DNA of 64,000 nt, taken from Bifidobacterium asteroides. GTDB lineage: Bacteria; Actinomycetota; Actinomycetes; Actinomycetales; Bifidobacteriaceae. The translations under genes and the position numbers were made by a program. Shown here in pieces: positions 1 through 12,073 of the stretch. The stretch is taken from assembly GCF_019469425.1 (NCBI RefSeq), contig NZ_CP048272.1, positions 682,001 to 746,000 of the forward strand, written 5' to 3'. How positions within the stretch are numbered: the first letter of the stretch is position 1; every line of letters starts with the position of its first letter. A model generated the notes under the pieces. The model saw only the letters and a list, made by a program, of their open reading frames with translations. It ran no database searches and was not told the origin of the DNA.

Positions 1-153
1 TACGGCTACCGGATCCTCCGCGACACGGAGGTCGACCCGCGCATCCTCGACTACCTGAAGATGAGCCCCAAGGTGCGCTACCGCGACACCTCCTACAGGA
101 TCCTGTACAACCACATCGTCAAACCCGACGGCACACGCCAGCAGCGGGTATAG
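1..153 (+). CDS. C-terminal fragment of an unrecognised protein
   Basis: An open frame enters from the left edge and ends at a TAG at 151-153, giving the last 50 residues of a protein. It is rich in Tyr, Arg and Asp and ends in DGTRQQRV. I do not recognise the family. The XRE-like gene at 245 follows in the same direction, so the two may belong to one accessory module. Only the tail can be seen, so no function is proposed. Confidence 0.5.
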   Translation, partial: YGYRILRDTEVDPRILDYLKMSPKVRYRDTSYRILYNHIVKPDGTRQQRV

Positions 154-244
154 CCGAACAGTCTCCCGGCCCCGCCCGTCATGGTATCCTTGAAAAAGAG
201 GAATGACAAACACCCCGCAACCTAGCGGGGCCGGGGAGGACACC

Positions 245-703
245 ATGGAAGCAGAGGGCCTGCTGCCACACAGCAAGGCGGCATTCGCAGCAGCACGCGA
301 AACCGTCGGCATCTCCCAGGCTATGCTCGCCACCCTCCTGCACATCAACCCCAAAACCGTCAAAAGCTGGGAATCACCCGACATACCAGCCATGCCCTCC
401 GCCAAAGCCTGGAACCTGATAACCAGCCTCATGACCCAGATCAACAGCTTCACCAGCCTCGCGCTCGCCGAAGCCGCATACGGACCCGTCGAACTGCTCA
501 TGGTGCGCGCCATCCGCAAGGACACGCAGGTCCAGATCGTCAACGCCCGCATCAGATCTGCAATGACCGCCCTGATCCACGCCGGAAGCCCCCCAAGCAT
601 CGACTACATCCCCATGCCCGAAGACACCACCCGCCTCGGCCTGGACATGACCGGCTTCATCCGCAGACCCCCACACCGCCACGACAAAACCCACCATCAA
701 TGA
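245..703 (+). CDS. XRE-like helix-turn-helix protein
   Basis: This is a protein of about 152 residues. Its N-terminal part (residues about 12-55) reads as a Cro/C1-type helix-turn-helix, with GISQAMLATLLHINPKTVKS as helix-turn-helix and a following Trp-Glu typical of the XRE fold. The rest is an Ala/Arg-rich helical region with no recognised domain. An in-frame ATG at 203 exists, but the ATG at 245 has a GGAGG about 5 bases upstream and is preferred. Genes of this kind usually regulate plasmid, phage or antirestriction modules, and it sits at the head of one here. The target is unknown. Confidence 0.7.
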   Translation: MEAEGLLPHSKAAFAAARETVGISQAMLATLLHINPKTVKSWESPDIPAMPSAKAWNLITSLMTQINSFTSLALAEAAYGPVELLMVRAIRKDTQVQIVNARIRSAMTALIHAGSPPSIDYIPMPEDTTRLGLDMTGFIRRPPHRHDKTHHQ

Positions 704-876
704 ACCCACCACCCCGGATACCCAGACTCGACAACAGCACACACCTGAAAAACCGCCGCCGATCGGCACAGCAGCCCCTGACGACCCACCCGGAAACGCG
801 CCCGGACAACACCATCCGACAAAGACACCACCCACCCGAAAGCCCCACAGACGCGGCCACCCCGCGCCACAACTGA
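700..876 (+). CDS. possible small Pro/Arg/His-rich protein, coupled to the upstream gene
   Basis: A 58-codon frame begins at an ATG that overlaps the stop of the XRE-like gene by four bases (ATGA), the usual arrangement for translational coupling. The predicted peptide is basic and proline-rich, with no recognisable domain and no Shine-Dalgarno sequence of its own. High-G+C DNA often gives such frames by chance, so this is a weak call that rests mainly on the overlap. Confidence 0.22.
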   Translation: MNPPPRIPRLDNSTHLKNRRRSAQQPLTTHPETRPDNTIRQRHHPPESPTDAATPRHN

Positions 877-932
877 AAACCACCGCCCCCAAAACGGGAC
901 CGGACCCGCCACAAGAAAAAAAGAACCACCCA

Positions 933-967
933 TGCCACAATAGATACCACCCACACAAAAAGGGGCA
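933..967 (+). promoter_or_regulatory. island promoter motif, copy 1 (extended -10)
   Basis: TGCCACAAT at 933-941 looks like an extended -10 box (TGn plus hexamer). It is followed by a GATAC and CCACCCACACAAAAA segment and an AGGGG ribosome-binding site. The same arrangement recurs at 3666 and, on the other strand, at 5048. It drives the ArdC-like remnant that starts about 30 bases downstream. Confidence 0.5.
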
Positions 968-972
968 GCACG

Positions 973-1320
973 ATCCACCAGAACAACACCGACACAACCA
1001 GCAAAACCAAACAAACCCGTACCACCTCCAACCAAGGAATAGCCGCGCTCGCAGAGAGCGGGCAACGGGACAGGATGCTGGACCGCCTGGCCGGGTTCCG
1101 GCCGTATTCGGCCCCCAACGTCCTGCTGATGCTCGCCCAGGCGCCCAAGGCGACGCGGGTCGCCGGCTGCCGCAAATGGCGGGAGATGGCCTGCTGTCCG
1201 TTGCCGAGCGTCTTCGGCATCTCCCGGACGGACCCTATCGAGGGGTTCGACCACCCCCCTGACGACGGAGCCGAAGATCGAGGGGATGTCGTCCCGATGA
1301 CCCATCGTCCGCTGCCCCCC
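973..1320 (+). pseudogene. ArdC-like antirestriction protein remnant (ssDNA-binding domain)
   Basis: The frame around 1033-1190 matches the N-terminal ssDNA-binding domain of ArdC/DUF1738 proteins: FRPYSAPNVLLMLAQAPKAT followed by RVAGCRKWREM. These plasmid proteins protect incoming single-stranded DNA. Right after this motif the sequence jumps to VFGISRTDP, which resembles the later VFDxSQT motif of the family, so an internal deletion is likely. No ATG precedes the domain in frame. The position that would hold the start, judged from the related leader at 3664-3706, has ATC at 973. The frame then runs into a 12-base C tract at 1315-1326. I read this as a dead remnant. Confidence 0.6.
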
Positions 1321-1326
1321 CCCCCC
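1315..1326. repeat. poly-C tract (12 bases)
   Basis: Twelve consecutive C residues lie at the 3' end of the ArdC-like remnant. It is one of three long C/G homopolymers in this island (others at 4202 and 5382). Such tracts are prone to slipped-strand length change. Confidence 0.9.
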
Positions 1327-1377
1327 GTGGATAGGGGCACGTCTGGCTGTCGACGTGGAGGGCCGGGCGGCCCGGCT

Positions 1378-1414
1378 AAAAGTGTAATGCAAAAGTGTAA
1401 TGCAAAAGTGGCAT
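1378..1414 (+). repeat. 13-bp direct repeats, candidate operator
   Basis: AAAAGTGTAATGC occurs twice in tandem (1378-1390 and 1391-1403), followed by a partial third copy (AAAAGTGGCAT). The repeats sit directly upstream of the two-gene cassette that starts at 1418, which encodes a protein with an RHH tail. RHH antitoxins commonly bind short direct repeats at their own promoter, so this is a reasonable autoregulatory operator. Confidence 0.55.
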
Positions 1415-1417
1415 ACT

Positions 1418-1807
1418 ATGGATATGAGCAGGAAAGACAAGGGACCGGCGTTCAGCGCCACGGATCGGCGCCACTTCAAGGAGCTCGACCTGGACGAGGA
1501 CAAGGCCCGGAGAATGGTGACGGACGCGGACGACGACCAGAGCATCCTATGGTCGGCCATCCCCGACCCGCGCGACACAGTCGTGCCGCCCATGCGCCAC
1601 TGGCGCCCGGTCCTGTTCCTGGTCTGCCACCTGCCGCCCGACGCCCTGAACCACCCTCTGGCGGAGGTCCTGCTGGGGCCGGACGAATACGGCCATCCCG
1701 AGGTCTTCCACCTGTACCGGCTCACCGACATCTGGCAGCGCTACTGGCTCGACCACGACCCGCAGGCCCCGGCCAAAATGAGACGCTGGGGCCGCCTGAA
1801 CGGATAG
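1418..1807 (+). CDS. unrecognised protein, first gene of a toxin-antitoxin-like pair
   Basis: This protein of about 129 residues has an acidic N-terminus and a central hydrophobic segment (PVLFLVCHLP) followed by an aromatic-rich tail. Starts are possible at 1400, 1418 and 1424, and none has a strong ribosome-binding site. I do not recognise the fold. It lies 9 bases upstream of the RHH-tailed gene at 1817 and behind 13-bp direct repeats. By order, size and the partner it could be the toxin of a toxin-first module, as in BrnTA, but it does not show the BrnT motif. The toxin role is inference from context only. Confidence 0.55.
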   Translation: MDMSRKDKGPAFSATDRRHFKELDLDEDKARRMVTDADDDQSILWSAIPDPRDTVVPPMRHWRPVLFLVCHLPPDALNHPLAEVLLGPDEYGHPEVFHLYRLTDIWQRYWLDHDPQAPAKMRRWGRLNG

Positions 1808-1816
1808 GAGAGACAC

Positions 1817-2179
1817 ATGACCAAGGACAGGGAATACGAACAATACAAGGACTACATGGCCCACCCCGAGCGGGACTTCCAAAGCCCGCCGCTTGCAGCC
1901 TGGACGGGGGAGGACGCGCACAGGCTGGGCCGCATGCTGGCCGACCCGGACACGGACTGGGACAGCATGGTCTCCACCATCCAAGGCCGCCCGTCCATGG
2001 ACCAAAGGCAGGAAGGACGGGCCGCAACCCGTCAACGCTCCATCCGGCTGCCCCGGGCCATGGACGAATACGTGGGAGCGGCCGTGCGCAGGGAAGGCCT
2101 GAAGAACGCCAGCGAGTACGTCAGACTGCTGATAAGCCGTGACGCCGCCCAGCACCAACACAAGAAAATCGCCGCATGA
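1817..2179 (+). CDS. RHH-tailed putative antitoxin/regulator
   Basis: The protein has 120 residues. The C-terminal third reads as a ribbon-helix-helix: a basic strand RQRSIRLPRAMDEYV, then helix VRREGLKNASEYVRLLI. This is the DNA-binding and dimerising fold of many antitoxins and of ParB-like partition proteins. The N-terminal 70 residues are acidic and could be the partner-binding part. It has GGAGAG a few bases before the ATG and follows the 1418 gene closely, so the two are one operon. An antitoxin role is inferred. Confidence 0.6.
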   Translation: MTKDREYEQYKDYMAHPERDFQSPPLAAWTGEDAHRLGRMLADPDTDWDSMVSTIQGRPSMDQRQEGRAATRQRSIRLPRAMDEYVGAAVRREGLKNASEYVRLLISRDAAQHQHKKIAA

Positions 2180-2352
2180 CTGAAAAGACAGGGAAACCCG
2201 AAACGGACCAGACTGCAACCGACAGGGAACCGACATAGTGAAACCAGACCCGAAGCGCCCTGACACCCAAAGGCAAACACGGCGCTGACAAATACCTCAC
2301 CGTCTTCGCCGACCTGATTCTGTGCGTACTCACCATCCGCTTCATCCTCGCC

Positions 2353-2874
2353 GTGGCCACGTTCGTCCGCATGGCCCTGACCATGCATCTACGCCAGAAC
2401 CTCGCCGCGGCCCCGGTCCTGCTGATCCTGATGGGACTCTTCGAGCTCGGCACGCTCCTGGTGGGCATACCACAGACCGACACAAAAACCACCACGGTAT
2501 CCGCCACCCACATCATCTACATCGAAACACTCATCTTCGCCCTGACGACACGACTGGGCCACCCGGATCCCACGCCATCGACAGCCTTCACATGCCTCAC
2601 ACTCCTCGGCATAGTCGAGGCGCTCGCCATGGCCGTGTTTTGTTGTGACGTCATCCGTGATCGGTTTGATGCCCGGCAGAACCGTTGGTGGCTTCGGACC
2701 GTCATCTACCCCATCATTGGCATCGTCTTCATCGTCGCCTATTGGGTCATGCCGGACCTGGCGGACCAGTCAGGCACGCTCGTCTACTCGCTCGCCATCA
2801 CGATCGTGGTCGTCAACTATCTGATGCAGCTGGTGAACGAGCGCCTAATCCCGCGCGAAGGGCCGTCCGTGTAG
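2353..2874 (+). CDS. small multi-pass membrane protein with uncertain start
   Basis: The frame encodes at least four hydrophobic segments: near residues 20-40, 50-70, 78-100 and two more after 115. The GTG at 2353 falls inside what looks like an earlier membrane helix (LILCVLTIRFILAVATFV), and the same frame stays open upstream to 2242. No ATG, GTG or TTG occurs there, only a CTG at 2260. The true N-terminus has therefore probably been lost or shifted, or a rare start is used. The protein resembles DUF2975-type membrane proteins in size and layout, but I cannot confirm the family. Confidence 0.5.
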   Translation: MATFVRMALTMHLRQNLAAAPVLLILMGLFELGTLLVGIPQTDTKTTTVSATHIIYIETLIFALTTRLGHPDPTPSTAFTCLTLLGIVEALAMAVFCCDVIRDRFDARQNRWWLRTVIYPIIGIVFIVAYWVMPDLADQSGTLVYSLAITIVVVNYLMQLVNERLIPREGPSV

Positions 2875-2895
2875 CTGCCACACTTTTATGTGTGC

Positions 2896-3386
2896 TCAGT
2901 TAAAGGTTCCCTGATAGAAGGAGAGTTCATAGGGGGATTTCCTCATTTGCTGCTGTCCCCAGCCAAGGTGCTTCACTGCAGCTCTGGCGATTAAGGTCTT
3001 TCTCTGATGTTGGTCCATTGGTGGATGTCGGTGTAGGTGGGTTTCATGTGTTGTTTCCGCGATGTCGTGGTAGTTGGTTGTTGGTTGTTGGTTGTTGGTG
3101 GTCCATTGGTATCCGTAGGCGGTGTGTTGTTGGCCTCTGAGTGTGGTGAGGATGCCGTGTTTGATGGTGGTGGTGCTGGTTCCTGGGCGGTGGCGTCTTT
3201 TGGGTGCCTGGTTGCGTGCGGCGAGTTGGGTGATGGCGGTTCGGTCGGTGCCGCTGGGGTTGCGGTAGCCGGATTCCCAGGATGAGACGGTCTTGACGCT
3301 GCATCCGAGCAGCTGGCCGAACTCCTGTTGGGTGAGGCGGAGTCGTTTCCGGATGTTCCTGATGTCCTATGGATGTAGGTGGGCAT
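2896..3386 (-). pseudogene. frameshifted XRE-type regulator
   Basis: Translated on the minus strand, the frame from about 3366 down to 2896 gives a clear Cro/C1 helix-turn-helix: RLTQQEFGQLLGCSVKTVSS followed by WESGYRNPSG. This frame has no start codon; it is closed upstream by TAG at 3367-3369. The likely start, an ATG at 3386 behind GGGAGG, reads MPTYIH in another frame and would join the domain after a shift of one base. A 7-bp tandem repeat lies inside the coding part at 3074-3101. I read it as a recently broken regulator. Confidence 0.55.
3074..3101. repeat. heptanucleotide tandem repeat (TTGGTTG, 3.6 to 4 units)
   Basis: TTGGTTG is repeated at 3074, 3081 and 3088, with a degenerate fourth unit at 3095. 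It lies within the frameshifted XRE gene. A gain or loss of one 7-base unit changes the reading frame. Confidence 0.8.
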
Positions 3387-3410
3387 GTGCGCATCCTCCC
3401 TTCAGTCTGC

Positions 3411-3419
3411 AATGTAGCA
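3411..3419 (-). promoter_or_regulatory. island promoter motif, copy 2 (weak match)
   Basis: On the minus strand TGCTACATT fits an extended -10 box. It lies about 25 bases before the ATG at 3386 of the broken XRE gene, with GGGAGG in between. The downstream part matches the other copies poorly. Confidence 0.35.
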
Positions 3420-3583
3420 CTCTTCATGGGGTGGCGCGGTGGAGCCGGGGGAGGGGACCGTGGATGGCCGGACCCGGACCGCCTGGCCGGCGGGATCGGA
3501 CCGCCTGGACGCGGTCCTGGTCGTACGGATCGGGGCCCGCGCGGATGCCGGCACACACACATGCACGGCCCTGTGCTCATGCT

Positions 3584-3637
3584 CATATGCATATGAAACC
3601 TTGTACAGATACGCATATGAGCATATGAGCATATGAG
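3584..3637. repeat. CATATG octamer array A
   Basis: CATATG occurs five times, at 3584, 3590, 3614, 3622 and 3630. The last three are spaced exactly 8 bases apart as CATATGAG units. The array sits between the broken XRE gene on the minus strand and the promoter of the 3704 frame on the plus strand. Similar arrays lie at 5724-5793 and 7127-7180. Evenly spaced 7- to 8-bp units are typical binding sites of RHH partition proteins or repressors, and such a protein is coded at 6247-6456. Confidence 0.6.
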
Positions 3638-3665
3638 AAGATGAGCAGATGATCATACAAGCCCA

Positions 3666-3699
3666 TGCCACAATGATACTACCCACACAAAAAAGGAGA
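3666..3699 (+). promoter_or_regulatory. island promoter motif, copy 3 (extended -10) and ribosome-binding site
   Basis: TGCCACAAT at 3666-3674 is followed by a GATAC and CTACCCACACAAAAAA segment and then AAGGAGAG before the ATG at 3704. Over about 35 bases it is nearly the same as the leader at 931-965. Confidence 0.5.
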
Positions 3700-3703
3700 G
3701 CTG

Positions 3704-4044
3704 ATGGCCGCATTGGCCGAAGCCCAATTCCGGATCTTCGCGAGCTCGCCGGCGGGGATCGGGTCCTGTGCAGCGCGGGCGGACACACCGTGGAGCGCAT
3801 GGAGAGGGCCGGGCTCATCCGCCGGCAGCCTCACCGCCCCCGAGAAGCGCGCCGTCCTCCTGGAACGGGCCTGCCCCGAGCGCGCCCGGCGCCGCCTCAT
3901 CCTCGACCGCGCCCGGTCCGTCGCCCTGCCTGCCGCAAGCAGCTTCACCCCTTCACCAGGGAGGGGCTCGCCCGCCTCGCCGGCACCCCCCCCGGCCGGG
4001 GGCGCGGGCTCCACGACCTGGGCTCCGGCCGGTCCGGACGCTGA
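3704..4044 (+). pseudogene. decayed DNA-binding-like gene
   Basis: The ATG at 3704 has an excellent ribosome-binding site (AAGGAGAG) and promoter motif. Its frame begins MAALAEAQFR and then turns to low-complexity sequence. The neighbouring frame picks up sensible protein at the same point (LRELAGGDRVLCSAGG, then HTVERMERAGLIRR, a winged-helix-like pattern) and runs to a stop at 4042-4044. One missing G near 3731 would join them. The later part looks degraded too. I call it a frameshifted gene of unknown family. Confidence 0.35.
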
Positions 4045-4201
4045 CCCGTGCGGGGACGCCCCTTCCCGGCCTGGGCCCCGGCGCCTTCGTCCGGATCCTC
4101 GGGTGCGCGGACCCCCCAGGCCGCCACCGTCCGGCGCGGAGCCCACCCGCCGGATCCCGCCAGACCCGGCCATCCTGCCCAGCCTCTCGAACCAAGCACG
4201 G

Positions 4202-4221
4202 CCCCCCCCCCCCCCCCCCCC
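4202..4221. repeat. poly-C tract (20 bases)
   Basis: Twenty consecutive C residues lie in a stretch (4045-4304) with no convincing gene, just downstream of the HTH-NUMOD1 gene on the minus strand. It is the longest homopolymer in the window. Confidence 0.9.
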
Positions 4222-4304
4222 AACTCCCCCTAATTCGACCCCCATGCCCCAAGACGCCCCGCTGCGCACCGGCCACGACCAACGGGCGCCACAAACACGC
4301 CCCA

Positions 4305-4904
4305 TCAGCCCGGCTGCACGCCGCCCCCGCCACCGACATCCACCCGCCGGGTCCGCTCCGCCCAATACTTCCACGCATACCCGTAGGCCGACCTGCGCTT
4401 CCCCCGACACGCATCACTGACATTGGCATGCGACGCCCTGGGAGCACCATGCCCCCTCAGCCAGCGCACCGCATCCTCCACGCTCCTGTACCTCGCCAGA
4501 ATCTCATGGTTGTCCGGATCAACCCGCACCACATCATGATTGGCATACGCCGACCGCATCCTGCCCCCCACCTGGACCGGCCGGCCACCGTCCCCGCCCC
4601 GCCACGCAGCACGAGCCCGCCGGTTCGACATCCCCCGATACTCGAAGAACGGCGACTCCGCCCGGGGATCATCCCCCACGAACAACAGCCGCTCGGACCC
4701 CACCCGCAGCACACGGGCAGCCAGAACCGCCTCAGCCAACGGCACACGACGACGAATATGGTTCTCCGCACGGGTCACCGCATCCCTGCTGGTGACCACG
4801 CCGCCCGCCAGATCATTCACAGCCGCGGCAAGCTCCGCCGCCGTGAGCCCGCGCTCGCGGCGCAGTCTCTTCAGACGGGTCCCGTAGTCGGTGTGTTCGC
4901 TCAT
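4305..4904 (-). CDS. helix-turn-helix protein with C-terminal NUMOD1-like domain
   Basis: The protein has 199 residues. Residues about 8-60 form a Cro/C1-type helix-turn-helix (RLKRLRRERGLTAAELAAAV). Residues about 130-182 match the NUMOD1 modular DNA-binding domain of homing endonucleases: ILARYRSVEDAVRWL, then ANVSDACRGKRRSAYGYAWK. No HNH or GIY-YIG nuclease motif is present. Two DNA-binding domains without a nuclease suggest a regulator, perhaps of phage or mobile-element origin. The start has GGAGG 4 bases before the ATG, and a promoter motif lies at 5040-5048. The tail is Gly-rich. Confidence 0.7.
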   Translation of the reverse strand: MSEHTDYGTRLKRLRRERGLTAAELAAAVNDLAGGVVTSRDAVTRAENHIRRRVPLAEAVLAARVLRVGSERLLFVGDDPRAESPFFEYRGMSNRRARAAWRGGDGGRPVQVGGRMRSAYANHDVVRVDPDNHEILARYRSVEDAVRWLRGHGAPRASHANVSDACRGKRRSAYGYAWKYWAERTRRVDVGGGGGVQPG

Positions 4905-5013
4905 GTCGCCTCCGTCGATGGTCCCTTCCGTGGCGCGCCCGGCTTTCCCCGGACGTCCGGCCGGGCCCCCTGCAGGCGGCTTTGGATCGGCCGGCGTCGC
5001 GCATTTGCTCGAC

Positions 5014-5048
5014 GCCTCCCATTATGTGTGAGTGGTATCATTGTAGCA
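5014..5048 (-). promoter_or_regulatory. island promoter motif, copy 4 (extended -10)
   Basis: On the minus strand TGCTACAAT (5048-5040) is an extended -10 box followed by a GATAC and CACTCACACA segment and GGGAGG. It matches the copies at 933 and 3666 and would drive the HTH-NUMOD1 gene, leaving a leader of about 120 bases that contains a short frame beginning at 5022 or 5004. Confidence 0.5.
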
Positions 5049-5085
5049 TTTTCCCCGGCCGCCGAGGATCAGTCCCCCGCCCCCT

Positions 5086-5429
5086 TCAGGCGGCCGGGGG
5101 GATGCCATGCACCCCCGCCGCCGCGGCCGTGCGCGGGCGGAGACTGTCGGCGCCCCGCAGGATCCCCCCGTCTTCAAGCATGGGGACGTTCAGGGTCCGG
5201 GCGCGCCAGTCCCTGAGGAGATGCAAGGGCCCTTTCCGCACCGGCCTTCCGCATCCGTCGAGGAGCACGGCCCAGGCGGTGATGCCCGTCAGCCCTGCCT
5301 CCCCCGTGGCCGGGGCGCATTCGTAGGCGTACTGGAAGTCACGGCATCCGATCGTCCTGCCGGTCTCCGGGTCCGTCAGGTCCCCCCCCCCCCCCCAGCC
5401 GGTCGCAGGTGGCGTCGTATCAGTTCCAT
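5086..5429 (-). CDS. unrecognised protein with in-frame poly-G tract; currently out of frame
   Basis: On the minus strand an ATG at 5429 has GAGGGGAGGGCT before it and codes MELIRRHLRPA, then enters 15 consecutive G residues (plus-strand C at 5382-5396). With 15 G the frame meets a TGA at once (5376-5378). In the frame reached by 13 or 16 G it continues without a stop for about 98 more residues (DLTDPETGRTIGCRDFQYAY onward) to a TGA at 5086. That downstream frame looks like real protein, with Cys, Trp and a balanced composition. This is the layout of a phase-variable contingency gene, here in the off state. The family is not recognised. Confidence 0.5.
5382..5396. repeat. poly-C/poly-G tract (15 bases) inside a coding region
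   Basis: Fifteen C residues on the plus strand are poly-G in the sense strand of the minus-strand gene at 5086-5429, eleven codons after its ATG. The tract length decides whether the gene is in frame. Confidence 0.9.
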
Positions 5430-5442
5430 AGCCCTCCCCTCG

Positions 5443-5685
5443 TCAATGGCTCCAGCGCACACCCCCATTGGGAATGTTTCCAGTGATTTCAATGCTCCAA
5501 GAGGTATCATCGACAGCAGAAAGGCAGTCCGGGTCGATTGGCTCGGGCTGCCGGAGGGGGAGTGGTCGGCCACGGCGGCCGTCCCCAGGAGGCGGGGGAA
5601 TGAGATGACGGCGGCCCCGCCGACTAAATGGCGAGCGCCGCAGGAGGCGGCACGGGGATGTCCGAGCGAGTCCCGGCCGCTCCAT
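5443..5685 (-). CDS. unrecognised small protein upstream of the poly-G gene
   Basis: A frame of about 80 residues ends with SIEITGNIPNGGVRWSH. Its stop lies 14 bases before the ATG of the poly-G gene, so the two would be one operon. The last 30 residues look like genuine protein; the first 40 are Arg/Pro-rich and less convincing. The start is uncertain (ATG 5685, or TTG 5691). CATATG array B lies just upstream of the operon. No family is recognised. Confidence 0.35.
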   Translation of the reverse strand: MERPGLARTSPCRLLRRSPFSRRGRRHLIPPPPGDGRRGRPLPLRQPEPIDPDCLSAVDDTSWSIEITGNIPNGGVRWSH

Positions 5686-5723
5686 AACCAACCCATGGAC
5701 AGATGGGAATATGCTGATATCAT

Positions 5724-5793
5724 CATATGTTCATATGCACATCTGAAGATATGACTGATGGCTGAGATGAAAACATGACCATATGACCATATG
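5724..5793. repeat. CATATG octamer array B
   Basis: CATATG occurs at 5724 and 5732 and again at 5780 and 5788, each pair spaced 8 bases apart, with degenerate units (AATATG, GATATG, ACATGA) between. The array lies between the poly-G operon and the end of the par operon, both on the minus strand. Confidence 0.55.
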
Positions 5794-5893
5794 TATGCCT
5801 TGCCTGCGCGAGCCGACGTCGGCATCGGCCATGCAGCAGCGGTGACGGCGCACCGGCCCCGCCGGAGGTTCGGCCGGGGCGGGGGAGGGCTGG

Positions 5894-6250
5894 TCAGTCC
5901 CGATGCGGGCGGTCGCGGAGCCTGATGATGGGGGAGGGGTGGTCTGCGTCCGGTGGGGTGACAGTGAAGAGCATATGGCCGGTCCGCGAACGGAGCGAGC
6001 GCGTGATGATGCCAGCGACCCTGCCCGGGTTGGTGCCGCTGGGCAGGGGCGGCCTGTCGTTGCGTGAGAGGAAGTCCTCGTAGATCTCCATGAGTCTGCC
6101 GGCGTCCTCGGGTCCCAGGGTGAGGCGGCTGATCGTGGGATGGGTGGTCATCCAGTCCCTGGCCACCTCCGGCAGCGTCCTGCCGCCCGTCTGGGGGTCA
6201 TGGCGTGTGCCGGGGTCGACGGGTGCAGGCGGGTCTGTGGGGTCGGTCAT
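5894..6250 (-). CDS. unrecognised third gene of the par operon
   Basis: This protein of 118 residues has a Pro/Asp-rich N-terminus and a helical middle (ARDWMTTHPTISRLTLGPED). It overlaps the RHH gene by 4 bases (ATGA), which indicates translational coupling. No known domain is seen. Its place after parA and an RHH gene suggests a role in partition, copy control or regulation of the element, but that rests on position only. Confidence 0.6.
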   Translation of the reverse strand: MTDPTDPPAPVDPGTRHDPQTGGRTLPEVARDWMTTHPTISRLTLGPEDAGRLMEIYEDFLSRNDRPPLPSGTNPGRVAGIITRSLRSRTGHMLFTVTPPDADHPSPIIRLRDRPHRD

Positions 6251-6456
6251 TGTCCCTCGTCCAGGTACTTTTCGAGGGCGTCGGCCACGAGGTCGCTCAT
6301 GGTGGAGTCGCGTTCGACGGCCGCGGTCTTCAGGCGGCGGATCATGCCTCTGCGCATCATGATGGTGGTCTGCACCTTGGGCTCCTTGCGGGTTTCGCCG
6401 TCCATGAGCGCTTCGTTGATGTTCTTCTTCTTGCCGCCTGTCATGAGTTTCTGCAT
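6247..6456 (-). CDS. RHH DNA-binding protein, ParB-like partner of ParA
   Basis: The protein has 69 residues. After a basic N-terminal tail (QKLMTGGKKKNINEAL) comes a ribbon-helix-helix: strand EPKVQTTIMMRRGMIRRLK, then a helix ending in MSDLVADALEKYLDE. Small RHH proteins coded just after a ParA ATPase are the centromere-binding partners of class Ib partition systems (ParG and omega types), and their flexible basic tail stimulates the ATPase. The parA stop is 9 bases upstream. The CATATG octamer arrays at 3584, 5724 and 7127 are good candidate binding sites. Binding itself is inferred. Confidence 0.7.
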   Translation of the reverse strand: MQKLMTGGKKKNINEALMDGETRKEPKVQTTIMMRRGMIRRLKTAAVERDSTMSDLVADALEKYLDEGQ

Positions 6457-6465
6457 GGGGGCTCC

Positions 6466-7067
6466 TTATTCCTTGATGTTGGGTAGTTCGAGCAGCTCTG
6501 AGGTGAATTCGATGAATCCGGAGTCCGTGGGCACCTGGTTGCCTCCGTTGCTGGCGTTGTGGACCGATTCGCGTTGGGGGATGAGGGTGTCGAATCGGGC
6601 CAGGTGCCTGCTTCCGATCAGGTCGATGGCCTGGCGGGTGCTCTTCTGCCGGGGGTTGGCGAAGTTGAGCAGGATGGCCCTGGGGGAGGCGAAGGAGTCG
6701 ACGGCAGCCAGGGTGCGTTCGGTGTCCAGGGATCCGGGCTTGGCGACGATCACGATGATGTCGGAGACCCGGTCGATGGCCTCGCTCATGGCGTTGCGGA
6801 TGTCCTGGGGCGTGTCGACAAGGAGGAAGTCGCAGTCGCGTGCGTCCTCCGGGTCGGTGATGTTCCTGGCGATGGCGGTCCTGACCGGGAAGGGGAGAGG
6901 GGTGCCGGCTTCCTTGGCGCGGCTGTTCCAGTCGTAGGCGCTGCCCCAGGGGTCCAGGTCCTTGACGATGACCCGGTAGCCTCGCCTGCTCAGCGCCAGG
7001 GCAGTCATGATGGTGGCCGTGGTCTTGCCGACGCCCCCTTCACGTTCGCGAATGTGATGACCTTCAG
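6466..7067 (-). pseudogene. parA: ParA-family partition ATPase, one-base frameshift in the Walker A motif
   Basis: From 7041 downward the frame reads GGVGKTTATIMTALALSRRG, the deviant Walker A motif of ParA, then DFLLVDTPQD (Walker B) and IIVIVAKPG. The N-terminal strand KVITFANVKG lies in another frame from 7067, because the C run at 7034-7038 has five bases where six would give KGGVGKTT. Restored, the protein has about 200 residues, normal for small ParA proteins. The start would be CTG at 7067, with GGAGG 5 bases before it. As read, only an ATG at 7008 without Walker A is usable. This could be a real lesion or a homopolymer read error. Confidence 0.7.
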
Positions 7068-7126
7068 GTTAGCCTCCGATCGGTTGCGGTCGTGCGCATG
7101 CGCGCATGCCTGCATGTTCCAGCGTC

Positions 7127-7180
7127 CATATGCTCACATGCTTCCGTATCCATACGTTCATATGACAGTATAGACATATG
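7127..7180. repeat. CATATG array C, upstream of parA
   Basis: CATATG occurs at 7127, 7159 and 7175, with related units (CACATG, CATACG) between. The region lies 60 to 115 bases before the parA start, the usual place of a partition centromere and operator. It is less regular than arrays A and B. Confidence 0.5.
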
Positions 7181-7510
7181 ATTAAGCACATGTGGCCTTT
7201 TAATGCCGACGGGCCGCCGCATCATGGGTCGTCATACCAGGGAGGGACGCCTTGCGGATCCTGATGGATACAGGATGATGCCACCCTTCACAGTGTGAGG
7301 GCCGGCGATCAACGGCATCAGTTCGTCTGGGCCGTGCCCGGAGCCAGACGCTGGAGCCGGGCCGCCCAGGCCTTTGCTTCTCACTGGCAGCTTCATTTAT
7401 GTTTCTTCGGATATGTGAAGGGGACGGCTGTTATGGTTGGCTCCAAGTAACGTCGGCGGGATGGGAGGCCTGCAAGCAACCGGTTCCGCAGGCACATTCT
7501 TTATATTCCA
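7181..7510. other. non-coding stretch; right part is the 3' flank of a duplicated module
   Basis: No supported gene is seen here. From about 7330 to 7510 the sequence is close to 10785-10972, in the same position downstream of the second surface-protein gene. The best-conserved part (7397-7510) is about 90% identical by eye and includes a potential hairpin with arms GTTACTTGG and CCAACCATAAC on the minus strand. Confidence 0.5.
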
Positions 7511-8548
7511 TTAGCCAATACCACACGAACCATCCGGATTACAACCATGATTACCTATCGGCTTATGATTCTGCACCCATTGGTTCCAATCGAATCCACC
7601 ACTTCCCCCGCTTTGCGGCGCTGCTGGTGCTGCGGGTGCGGGGGCTGCTGGCGCGGAGCCGCTGCCGTGGTTGTATGAGGGTCGGCGGGAGGGCGTGTAG
7701 CCTTGCCGCCCCCGACTAGTAGAGGGGGCCGGACGCTGCTGGGCGGGCGCCGGACGCCGGGCTGGCTGCCGGGCGGCCGGAGCCGCCTGGGCTGGCGGGG
7801 CAGCTTGGCTTTTCTGTTGGATGGACGTGTTCACCTGGTCGATGGCCGATTGCAGGGCTGCGGCCGCGTCCTGGTAGGTTTCCGTCTTGTCGTCTTTGAT
7901 GCTGCCGGCTTGGCTGATGGCCTGCTGCAGGCTGTCGCGGACGGCGTTGTCCGCTACTTTCCCGTCGGAGTCGCTTAAAAGCTTTGAAGCCTCGTCCTTC
8001 TTCGCGTTCAAGGCCGTCTTCGCATCATCCAGGCTTTTCGCATCACGGGAGGCCAGCACGGCTTTCGCGGCCTTGTCCAGGCTGCGGTAGACGTCCTCGG
8101 TCCTTTTCGCCTTGCCGGCCATGGCCTGCAGGTCGCCTGCGGGCATGGACGCCTGGCATTGGACGGCTTGCGGTTCGATATCCTCTGCGCTGCTCAGGGA
8201 CTTTTGCATGTCGTCCACCGTTTTCGGGTCTTTCACCTGGTCCTTCCGGATACCGGCCGTTTTACGATACCTGTTCAAGGCGGCCTGGGCCGACTTGACG
8301 CTGGACTGCATGGTCTCGACTGATTGCGTGCAGTCCGTCAAGGCGGATTCATGCTGATGGGACTCGTATACCTTCCAACCGACCAAACCGGCCGCGACCA
8401 GCACGGCCACCACGCCGGCTGACACCACAGGCGCCAACCACTTCGGGCGGGGTTTTTGTTTCCTGTCTGGCGGATTCTGGGACTCGAACATTGCAGGGTC
8501 ATTCACTTCCCCGACACCGGATTCCTGATCCTGGTTAGTCTTGCTCAT
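7511..8548 (-). CDS. membrane-anchored surface protein, copy 1
   Basis: The protein has 345 residues. A charged N-terminus of about 38 residues precedes one membrane helix (APVVSAGVVAVLVAAGLVGW), so most of the protein should be outside. Residues about 65-255 are a helical, Lys/Ala/Asp-rich region with two Cys. Then come a Pro/Ala/Gln-rich linker and a conserved tail GGFDWNQWVQNHKP with two Cys ending in SCGIG. The start at 8548 has AAGGGA before it; the frame extends further up without a better start. It is a paralogue of the protein at 10973-12073, with the middle and tail nearly identical. The role is unknown; a cell-wall or adhesion function is only a guess. Confidence 0.7.
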   Translation of the reverse strand: MSKTNQDQESGVGEVNDPAMFESQNPPDRKQKPRPKWLAPVVSAGVVAVLVAAGLVGWKVYESHQHESALTDCTQSVETMQSSVKSAQAALNRYRKTAGIRKDQVKDPKTVDDMQKSLSSAEDIEPQAVQCQASMPAGDLQAMAGKAKRTEDVYRSLDKAAKAVLASRDAKSLDDAKTALNAKKDEASKLLSDSDGKVADNAVRDSLQQAISQAGSIKDDKTETYQDAAAALQSAIDQVNTSIQQKSQAAPPAQAAPAARQPARRPAPAQQRPAPSTSRGRQGYTPSRRPSYNHGSGSAPAAPAPAAPAAPQSGGSGGFDWNQWVQNHKPIGNHGCNPDGSCGIG

Positions 8549-8623
8549 AAGTCCCTTTCTTCCGTAGCTCATTTGGAATGTCACACACTTGGCCCACAAG
8601 GCGGGAAGGAGCAAAGCTGTGGA

Positions 8624-8935
8624 TTACTGTTCGTCGCTCTGGATCAGCAGGCCAAAAAGGTGGGATAGCTTCATTGTCCTGTGCAGCTCCTCGGTCGACT
8701 GATACGTGTACCCGTGCCTTTCATGCCCGGACTTGACATTCCGCACCGTAAACCCGAGCTCCCTGGTTTTCCGACCCGCATGGTCTCTATGTGTTCCTCC
8801 TTGACCAGAGGGAACTGATAGTATCCCTCCAACGTTTTCCAGTCTACGCATATCCCCGTCGATCCCCAGCCTGCGTCCATTTTCCTCTACCTGAACCTGT
8901 CGACGGTTGTAGAGAAGGTTTATGCTGATCAGCAA
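8624..8935 (-). pseudogene. frameshifted unrecognised gene
   Basis: Two overlapping minus-strand frames each carry part of a sensible protein. One gives VDWKTLEGYYQFPLVKEEHI from about 8880; the other gives TRELGFTVRNVKSGHERHGY and runs to a stop at 8624. They would join by a one-base change near the AAAA run around 8772. The combined product is about 85 to 100 residues. I do not recognise the family. The gene lies upstream of surface protein copy 1 and has no counterpart next to copy 2. Confidence 0.35.
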
Positions 8936-10038
8936 GCCAGCACTTCAATATAGTGGCGGCAGAACGAGATCTATTCGTTTGTCGAATCATGGTCAATATA
9001 ACAGCGATTCGACGAAGGACGCATTATTCTTCCATTAGTCAGGCGAGAACTGACGGAATATCGAATACAACGATGTGAAAGCAGCGGAGGAATCGATCCG
9101 GGGGGGGTGGTGCAGGGCGGGTCGGAAGCGTGTTCTGCTCAGCGTGCTGATCTGGCGAATTATCTCGTACTGCGATCTTTGATGTTTTCGTTGAGGGTGA
9201 AGGGCAAGTCGGAATGTGCTGTTCCTTGTCTTGTCCATGCAACCAACCATCTGGTCTCCACTTTGGCAGCATTGATAAACGATCTGGTGATGAGGACCAT
9301 AAACAGCACGGGCGCGTTTTAAAGTCCACGGAGTCCGGGGGATCCAAGGAACCTCGCTCTTTCCTTATGCCTGAGCCACCAGAGTGCTCCGAATCGGGGT
9401 CGACGACTTCACCTTCCATTTGCCGTGTGTCATGCGTGCGTCTTGATCGAAGCAGCGCCCTGGGGAAGGTCTTAGACGGACTGGACCATACCTTCCATAA
9501 GATCGTCGTTAAGCATTGTCGGCATATCGTGCCAAAACACCGGATCCAGGTGGTCGGAAATCTCTTATACGCCCACCTGCCCGTATCGAAGGCGTCGCTG
9601 ACCGGCCAAATAGAACACCTCAAGAAAGAACGGGACAATCCGGATTGGACAATACCGAAGTTCGAACAGCTCCAAGATGCGTGAAGCTAGGTGGCGACCT
9701 GTCTCCGGGCCGCCCGGCCGCGTACGAACGTATGCTGCAGTACACCTTCAAGAGGCAATCCGCACCCTTGAAAATGCTTGCCGATATGCGTATGGGACTT
9801 GACCGAACAGCTCTTGTGCGCAGTTGATGCCTGCCGGAGCCAGGCTCAGCAGGCGTGGCAGGATGCATGCTCGGATAAGGTACCGTCCAGTGAATTTGGG
9901 ATGCATCATCTGAATTGCCAGATATGGATTATCCCAATGCGGCAGTTCATGCTGATGGCAAGTGATCTTCACAGGCGTGGCAGAATGGCATCATACTATG
10001 GGCAAGACTGCATGCTAAGTTCTGTTGCTACTGGCAAA
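8936..10038. other. long stretch without a confident gene
   Basis: About 9075-9400 repeats, in diverged form, the sequence at 12410-12720 next to the tRNA-Arg gene, and it holds no conserved frame. The part at 9430-9802 has two plus-strand frames with protein-like composition: one ending at 9684 (HLKKERDNPDWTIPKFEQLQ) and one of 41 residues from an ATG at 9677 (TYAAVHLQEAIRTLENACRY). They overlap by 8 bases and may be pieces of one decayed gene. Neither has a clear ribosome-binding site. Confidence 0.35.
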
Positions 10039-10972: not shown

Positions 10973-12073
10973 TTAGCCGATACCACAAACTCCAGCCGAA
11001 TTACAGGCTTCTCCATATGGTTTATGGTTCTGCACCCATTGGTTCCAATCGAATCCACCACTTCCTCCTTGTGGTGCTGCTGGTGCTGCTGGTGCTGCGG
11101 GGGCTGGCGCGGAGCTGCTGCCGTGGTTGTATGAGGGCTGGCGGGAGGGCGTGTAGCCTTGCTTCCCCCGACTAGTAGAGGGGGCCGGACGCTGCTGGGC
11201 GGGCGCCGGACGCCGGGCTGGCTGCCGGGTGGCCGGAGCCTGCGCCGCCTGGGCCTGCTGCTGGTCGGCTTGGTTTTTCTGTTGGATGGACGTGTTCACC
11301 TGGTCCATGGCCGACTGCAAGGCATCCGCCGCGTCCTGGTAGGTTTCCGCCTTGTCGCCTTTGATGCTGCCGGCTTGGCTGATGGCCTGCTGCAGGCTGT
11401 CGCGGACGGCGTTGTCCGCCACTTTCCCGTCGGAGTCGCTTAAAAGCGTTGAAGCCTCGTCCTTCTTCGCGTTCAAGGCCGCCTTCGCGTCCTCCAGGCT
11501 TTTCGCATCCCGGGAGGCCAGCACGGCCTTCGCAGCCTTGTCCAGGCTGCGGTAGACGTCGTCGCTCCTTTTCGCCTTGCCGGCCATGGCCTGCAGGTCG
11601 CCTGCGGACATAGACGCCTGGCATGTGAAGGCCTGGACCTGGGTGTGCTTGGCCTTCCCGACGGCCTTGGCCAGGTCTTTCACGGTCTTCGTGTCCTTGA
11701 CCTGGTCCTCTTTCACGGCGAAGGCCTGGAGGTAGGTGGAGGAGGCCGCTTCGGCCTGCTGCTCCGAATCTTTCACGGCGCGCACCTGCCGGGAGCACTG
11801 CGCCAGGGCCTGGTCGTGGCTCCTGTTCGAGGACGCCTTCCAAACGGCCAGGCCGGCCACGGCCAGCACGGCCACGGCCACCAGGATGATCGCCGGCGCC
11901 AGCCACTTGGGGCGGGGCCTGCCTGCCGGGCCCGAACCGCCTCCAGGCTCCTGGCCTGCCGCCGGCCCTATAGCCGGAGGCAGGCCATCCTCCTGCGGAG
12001 GCCGGCCGCCGGATCCATCAACATCAGCCAGGGTCCTAGTCTCCCCGTCATCGGGTGTGTGCTCCTCGTCCAT
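10973..12073 (-). CDS. membrane-anchored surface protein, copy 2
   Basis: The protein has 366 residues. A long acidic, Gly/Pro-rich N-terminus of about 60 residues comes before one membrane helix (APAIILVAVAVLAVAGLAVW). The helical outer region shares a block beginning ASMSAGDLQAMAGKAKRS with copy 1, almost unchanged. The proline-rich linker and the tail GGFDWNQWVQNHKPYGEACN ending in VCGIG also match copy 1. The N-terminal 140 residues differ much more than the rest, so the copies evolve unevenly or have recombined. Both copies have a nearly identical 3' flank of about 130 bases. Confidence 0.7.
   Translation of the reverse strand: MDEEHTPDDGETRTLADVDGSGGRPPQEDGLPPAIGPAAGQEPGGGSGPAGRPRPKWLAPAIILVAVAVLAVAGLAVWKASSNRSHDQALAQCSRQVRAVKDSEQQAEAASSTYLQAFAVKEDQVKDTKTVKDLAKAVGKAKHTQVQAFTCQASMSAGDLQAMAGKAKRSDDVYRSLDKAAKAVLASRDAKSLEDAKAALNAKKDEASTLLSDSDGKVADNAVRDSLQQAISQAGSIKGDKAETYQDAADALQSAMDQVNTSIQQKNQADQQQAQAAQAPATRQPARRPAPAQQRPAPSTSRGKQGYTPSRQPSYNHGSSSAPAPAAPAAPAAPQGGSGGFDWNQWVQNHKPYGEACNSAGVCGIG

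Follow-up and report, generated by a model that had tools for sequence, protein, structure and literature searches.

A length-variable poly-G tract among partition-type genes of Bifidobacterium asteroides

Described G-tract switches, partition systems and the 15-G locus

Host-adapted pathogens carry simple-sequence contingency loci, in which slipped-strand events in poly-G tracts give rise to phase variation. The 15-G locus examined in the present study has in common with these loci a tract near the 5' end and the logic by which tract length sets the reading frame, but differs from them in that neither an ON allele nor a conserved protein behind the tract was found. Within bifidobacteria, replication slippage in G-tracts controls two pilus clusters of B. 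breve in an ON/OFF manner (Penno et al. 2022, PMC9187656). That paper tabulates tracts of 8-13 G in five bifidobacterial species, mentions further G-tracts of strain UCC2003 without listing them, and warns that annotated G-tract lengths may deviate from measured ones. A preliminary description of the present locus had called slipped-strand phase variation little described in bifidobacteria; given its demonstration in the B. breve pilus genes (PMC9187656), poly-G slippage was already known in this group and the statement cannot be upheld.

Several features link the locus to the UCC2003 genes bbr_0113 and bbr_1889 (PMC9187656), which also have an intragenic G-tract separating a downstream frame from a short upstream frame that supplies start codon and ribosome site, are OFF in the annotated genome, and are plastic in tract length. 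The two cases differ in what the tract separates: in UCC2003, a pilin of a sortase cluster has its Sec signal and its LPXTG motif divided between the two separated frames, and the tabulated tracts measure 8-13 G (PMC9187656), whereas the present locus has 15 or 17 G, a leader of 11 codons and an orphan frame of 97 residues. The combination of sortase cluster, Sec signal and LPXTG pilin that characterises the Bifidobacterium pilus tracts was not found at the 15-G locus, nor was any other surface feature, and no sortase or pilin was detected among six proteins of the region scanned with Pfam.

The genes surrounding the tract invite a second comparison, with the partition system of pSM19035, in which contiguous 7-bp repeats that extend over several promoters are the binding sites of a ribbon-helix-helix (RHH) ParB (PMC9499535). 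This delta/omega-type system resembles the present region in combining a ParA, a small RHH protein and short repeats placed before several transcription units. It differs in the repeat, 7-bp WATCACW as opposed to the 8-bp CATATGNN found here, and in that the region described here is chromosomal and has a broken ParA.

Tract, leader and downstream frame

The window, i.e. the whole stretch of DNA analysed (64,000 nucleotides), comprises bases 682001-746000 of a one-contig 2.23-Mb genome. The features at the tract, in window coordinates, are the following:

5443..5685, minus strand: upstream open reading frame P0002, counted from its first ATG, a doubtful gene whose stop lies 13 bases before the leader ATG
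5432..5441, minus strand: putative ribosome-binding site, a purine-rich GAGGGGAGGG read directly from the sequence
5376..5429, minus strand: leader reading frame, MELIRRHLRPAGGGGGT followed by TGA, with 11 codons ahead of the tract
5382..5396, minus strand: homopolymer of exactly 15 G (C on the plus strand), read directly
5086..5379, minus strand: downstream frame P0001, 97 residues plus stop, an orphan

From its ATG at 5429, the leader runs through 11 codons, the 15 G and one further codon to its stop; the G residues begin at leader codon 12 and form a homopolymer near the 5' end that decides the frame. The layout given in the preliminary description was accurate in both respects, as a minus-strand leader of 11 codons with a ribosome site does enter 15 G and stop (one codon past the tract), and the frame that 13 or 16 G would give, described as open for about 98 residues, extends over 97 residues to the stop at 5086. 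P0001 joins the leader frame only with 13, 16 and so forth G. Two other connections were considered and rejected, namely that of P0001 to P0002, which share a frame at 15 G with a TGA intervening at 5443, and that of the downstream frame to the third upstream frame at the 17 G of the relative described below. As read from the sequences of the window and of this relative, neither alternative upstream frame has an ATG, GTG or TTG available after its last stop and ahead of the tract.

The 15-G run is beyond chance expectation in the window, for which 0.0018 G or C runs of at least 15 are expected assuming independent bases and 0.0033 assuming first-order dependence. The genome as a whole contains at least 31 separate tracts of ten or more G and, among the matches listed, the 15-G tract is the third longest, exceeded by a run of 20 at 4202-4221 and by one of 16.

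The GC content of P0001 at the three codon positions is 0.71, 0.61 and 0.88, and its codon score of 0.13 bits per codon is the highest among the six frames and comparable with that of the adjoining helix-turn-helix (HTH) gene (0.15). Scores as low were obtained for 5 of 121 real-gene chunks and scores as high for 6 of 84 open off-frame chunks, which makes coding likely, not proven; P0001 probably is, or was, a gene. Neither P0001 nor P0002 had a match in Pfam, NCBIfam or PHROGs. Homologues of P0001 were found in two of 27 genomes of the genus, its own and Bifidobacterium sp. B4142, and a scan of genome contigs returned a single locus, that of B4142; none was found in plasmids or in viral contigs, and the 20-base left flank of the tract had 0 matches in the latter. 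An order-level search gave matches at E ≤ 0.01 in 14 of 396 genomes, its own included and B4142 not among them. All 13 non-self matches were rejected as chance, the seven that were aligned being weak, and the sole other order match below 0.001 (L042, 5.8e-5) is antisense to a quinone-oxidoreductase-like open reading frame according to our own reading of the sequence. A phage match (Microbacterium phage Gack, E = 0.3) was likewise rejected, since it overlaps two annotated genes without sharing the reading frame of either. Searches of plasmids and phages with the 3.8-kb region as a whole returned one record each, covering 2-3% of the query. The searches for homologues of the downstream frame yielded the B4142 copy and nothing credible beyond it, and in B4142 the frame is not joined to the leader either.

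Bifidobacterium sp. B4142 is the nearest named relative found, with 97 differences from window 3500-7299 in 3775 aligned bases. Its tract consists of 17 G at the same place (L035:4982-4998) and, as 17 is neither 13 nor 16, the copies in B4142 and in the window are both OFF relative to the leader. The tract length in this relative demonstrated plasticity (15 versus 17 G), and the comparison produced no genome with the joined ON frame (0/2, in a comparison of two genomes only). By simple arithmetic, two OFF states in two genomes are expected in 44% of cases if one of the three frames of a switch is ON. The tract slips in length, and slippage, as opposed to another process, would account for the difference between 15 and 17 G.

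Conservation is uneven across the locus. The leader and ribosome-site stretch (5397-5445) has no differences from B4142 in 49 positions, and in the downstream frame of B4142 a deletion of 7 bases net causes a second shift beyond residue 65, outside any tract of 8 or more. The 65 comparable P0001 codons before this shift contain four nonsynonymous substitutions and one synonymous (pN/pS 1.45). The probability of at least four nonsynonymous substitutions among five is 0.0018 at a ratio of 0.06 (the value behind a lipoprotein tract of this genome), 0.26 at a ratio of 0.45 and 0.60 under neutrality. The five substitutions argue against strong constraint on P0001 and are compatible with moderate constraint, precisely because there are just five of them. 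On these few data, the B4142 shift and the four-to-one changes, the downstream frame does not behave as the intact and selected frame of a contingency locus.

Neighbouring partition-type genes, repeat arrays and G-tracts

The tract lies among a set of genes and repeats suggestive of a partition element, the main features of which are:

3584..3635, no strand assigned: five CATATG copies (8-bp array)
4202..4221, minus strand: second G-tract, 20 G, beyond the HTH gene; the B4142 counterpart is just G5-A-G-C-G4
4305..4904, minus strand: putative DNA-binding protein of 199 aa, with an HTH N-terminus and a weak HNH-endonuclease-family match at the C-terminus
5724..5793, no strand assigned: array of 8-bp CATATGNN-like repeats upstream of the tract unit
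5894..6250, minus strand: open reading frame of 118 aa overlapping the end of the RHH gene, no family match
6247..6456, minus strand: RHH (Arc-like) protein of 69 aa, candidate RHH-type ParB
6466..7067, minus strand: ParA-family partition ATPase, broken, with the Walker A region out of frame
7127..7180, no strand assigned: three spaced CATATG copies upstream of parA, without an exact adjacent pair

The ParA assignment is based on matches to NF041546 (E = 2.4e-17; 63 bits, under the cutoff of 180) and phrog_164 (E = 1.6e-13). Its Walker A region (7024-7067, minus strand), which when intact we take to be KGGVGKTT-like, is out of frame in both the window genome and B4142, and the presumed start codon is CTG in the window and ATA in B4142. 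The 69-aa RHH protein matched the Arc-like phrog_2639 (E = 1.8e-06) and, under the cutoff, Pfam RHH_10 (E = 0.0006). Of the hallmarks of type Ib partition, the region therefore has a ParA-family ATPase and a small RHH protein beside parA, and lacks an intact Walker A. The 199-aa protein just missed the cutoff of 27 for HTH_31 (26.6 bits) and matched phrog_20162 (E = 0.00031); compared with B4142 its gene has five nonsynonymous and four synonymous substitutions (ratio 0.45). The upstream gene that the preliminary description took to be coupled to the tract gene is doubtful, since the codon score of P0002 is negative (-0.29 per codon; -0.03 over its last 35 codons); in the B4142 copy a TAG occurs three codons earlier.

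The CATATG array reported to precede the operon is real. The CATATGNNCATATG pair occurs four times in the genome, each time within the arrays of this element (window 3614-3635 and 5724-5793), and its reversed control 0 times; the array at 3584-3635 includes an 8-bp stretch absent in B4142. Given its likeness to the pSM19035 system, we read the CATATG array as a candidate centromere or operator of a decayed partition system rather than as part of a phase switch. A separate motif, ATGCYACAATGATACYACY, is located upstream of the HTH gene (5031-5049, minus strand), with a similar copy at 3665-3683 (plus strand) and a related one at 929-964, and these motifs are possibly a shared operator. Further along the window, two paralogous open reading frames (7511-8614 and 10973-12073, minus strand) encode a hydrophobic segment, Ala/Pro-rich tails and a Cys-containing C-terminus; that at 10973-12073 matched the NCBIfam PspA model far under the cutoff (E = 1.1e-4) and had no PHROG match.

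Tracts of ten or more are present at five sites of the stretch syntenic between the two genomes (window 136-9078), with lengths of 12 (at 1315-1326, the third run in the window), 15 and 20 in the window and 17, 14 and 14 in B4142. Only one of the five sites, that with 15 and 17 G, is common to both: B4142 has no long tract at the sites of the window's 20 and 12, and has its two 14s where the window has 6 and 8. No listed G/C tract of the genome is longer than the 20-run; neither it nor the 12-run is mentioned in the preliminary description. A wider comparison, among the matches listed, covered 24 loci of the window genome plus the initial 9 kb of the window on one side and 20 loci of B4142 plus L035 on the other. 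For at least six homologous pairs, the tract reaches nine or more in the window genome as well as in B4142, and the six compared all differ in length (11/10, 13/15, 12/15, 11/14, 11/12 and 15/17, window genome/B4142), the 11/14 and 11/12 pairs having changes adjoining the tract as well. Poly-G length change is general in these genomes, and a suggestive tract layout alone is therefore no evidence of a switch.

Selected switches versus drifting tracts

Outside the window, seven of the tracts examined stand ahead of a frame at least 300 codons long. Three of these were dropped as unclear: at 137276 the ABC transporter domain is encoded well beyond the tract, the frame at 258633 had no match in Pfam, and at 839485 the tract is close to the start of a ROK protein or ahead of it. 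By our own reading, the remaining four (305263, 835475, 2084822 and 333187) have a short signal-peptide-like or lipoprotein-like frame before the tract. At 305263-305275 (L101), 13 G directly follow the lipobox cysteine of an SBP_bac_1 lipoprotein, which is out of frame; homologues have 12 G (G022) and 14 G (G010), and the gene is OFF in all three genomes, with a downstream frame of 509 codons that is intact in all three (pN/pS 0.043-0.088). The Peripla_BP_4 sugar-binding-type lipoprotein at 835475-835488 (L103) is OFF with 14 G, yielding 36 residues from the ATG, and its homologue in G020 is ON with 15 G (373 residues; pN/pS 0.035 behind the tract). Conversely, an RCC1-repeat protein with a signal-like leader at 333187-333199 (L102) is ON with 13 G (689 residues from the ATG), and its B4142 homologue is OFF with 15 G (67 residues). 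The fourth, a further SBP_bac_1 lipoprotein at 2084822-2084835 (L105), has 14 G a short way past the lipobox region and is in frame. We regard the lipoprotein at 305263 as a strong candidate for phase-variable nutrient uptake; no report of phase-variable solute-binding proteins in bifidobacteria was found among the titles and abstract openings of the open-licence papers listed. We rate the loci at 305263, 333187 and 835475 as better switches than the 15-G locus, which has no intact downstream frame that is either constrained or found both ON and OFF.

The explanation that we consider the most probable, with moderate confidence, is that the 15 G form a tract prone to slippage in a gene of a decaying element, drifting in length and not maintained as a selected ON/OFF switch. 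This gene, a small orphan with the run just inside its 5' end, would be part of a plasmid-type partition element that is carried on the chromosome and decaying. Slippage would have altered the tract to 15 G in the window and 17 G in B4142, placing the gene out of frame in both, its function having presumably been lost before or together with tract drift. In the absence of selection for ON cells, the gene would be in the course of being lost, and its tract would drift. We count in favour of decay the 15/17 length difference beside an unchanged leader-side flank, the OFF state of both genomes, the second B4142 frameshift, the pN/pS of 1.45, the broken ParA and the single tract site of five in common, together with the contrast to the two solute-binding lipoproteins (pN/pS 0.035-0.088 behind their tracts). 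Counted against it are the unchanged leader and ribosome-site stretch (0/49 differences), the retention in both genomes of this tract alone among the five local sites, and the coding-like composition of P0001 (GC3 0.88). The textbook slipped-strand layout seen at the outset thus holds for the arrangement itself and for its 15/17 plasticity, and falls short in that no ON genome, wider homologue, intact B4142 frame or constraint, as judged from five substitutions, was found.

Functional phase variation is less likely than such drift. According to this alternative, which we rate as rather unlikely, slippage through 13 or 16 G lets some cells make the joined product, which is about 114 residues long, and the OFF state of the two genomes is coincidental. 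The layout, the difference between 15 and 17 G and the conserved leader are all consistent with a working gene, as is the presence in the same genome of convincing switches of the same build (835475, OFF/ON; 333187, ON/OFF), and the SBP_bac_1 lipoprotein at 305263 is OFF in three of three genomes though strongly constrained. These points are countered by the absence of an ON genome, the orphan nature of the frame, its second shift in B4142, the lack of visible constraint and the decaying neighbourhood. A more elaborate and distinctly improbable variant is that the partition element itself carries a contingency gene, the orphan being placed under the centromere-like CATATG array and switched by the poly-G, such that one function of the element would vary stochastically among host cells.

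Also improbable is a miscall of tract lengths in one strain or in both, where the tract would actually measure 16 G (or 13) and the gene would simply be in frame. In its favour, each assembly is one base off 16, and PMC9187656 warns about annotated versus measured G-tract lengths. The assemblies deviate from 16 in opposite directions, however, and the second B4142 frameshift is outside any tract of 8 or more. Long homopolymers can cause transcriptional slippage or ribosomal frameshifting, and a product might be made in this way from the OFF sequence; we consider this very unlikely, as the downstream frame is without visible constraint. That the 97-residue frame was never a gene and is merely a by-product of high GC would fit the equal scores of 6 of 84 open off-frame chunks and the want of a credible homologue beyond B4142, but is hardly tenable for a frame that ranks first of six, with a GC3 of 0.88 and a score of 0.13 against 0.15 for the HTH gene.

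The 15-G locus helps to separate selected contingency loci from drift. A single genome has tracts before intact genes that differ between ON and OFF from one species to another, before constrained lipoproteins and in decaying DNA, and a striking tract layout is insufficient on its own for calling a switch. Should the tracts of the lipoproteins be borne out, phase variation in bifidobacteria would extend beyond pili to nutrient uptake.
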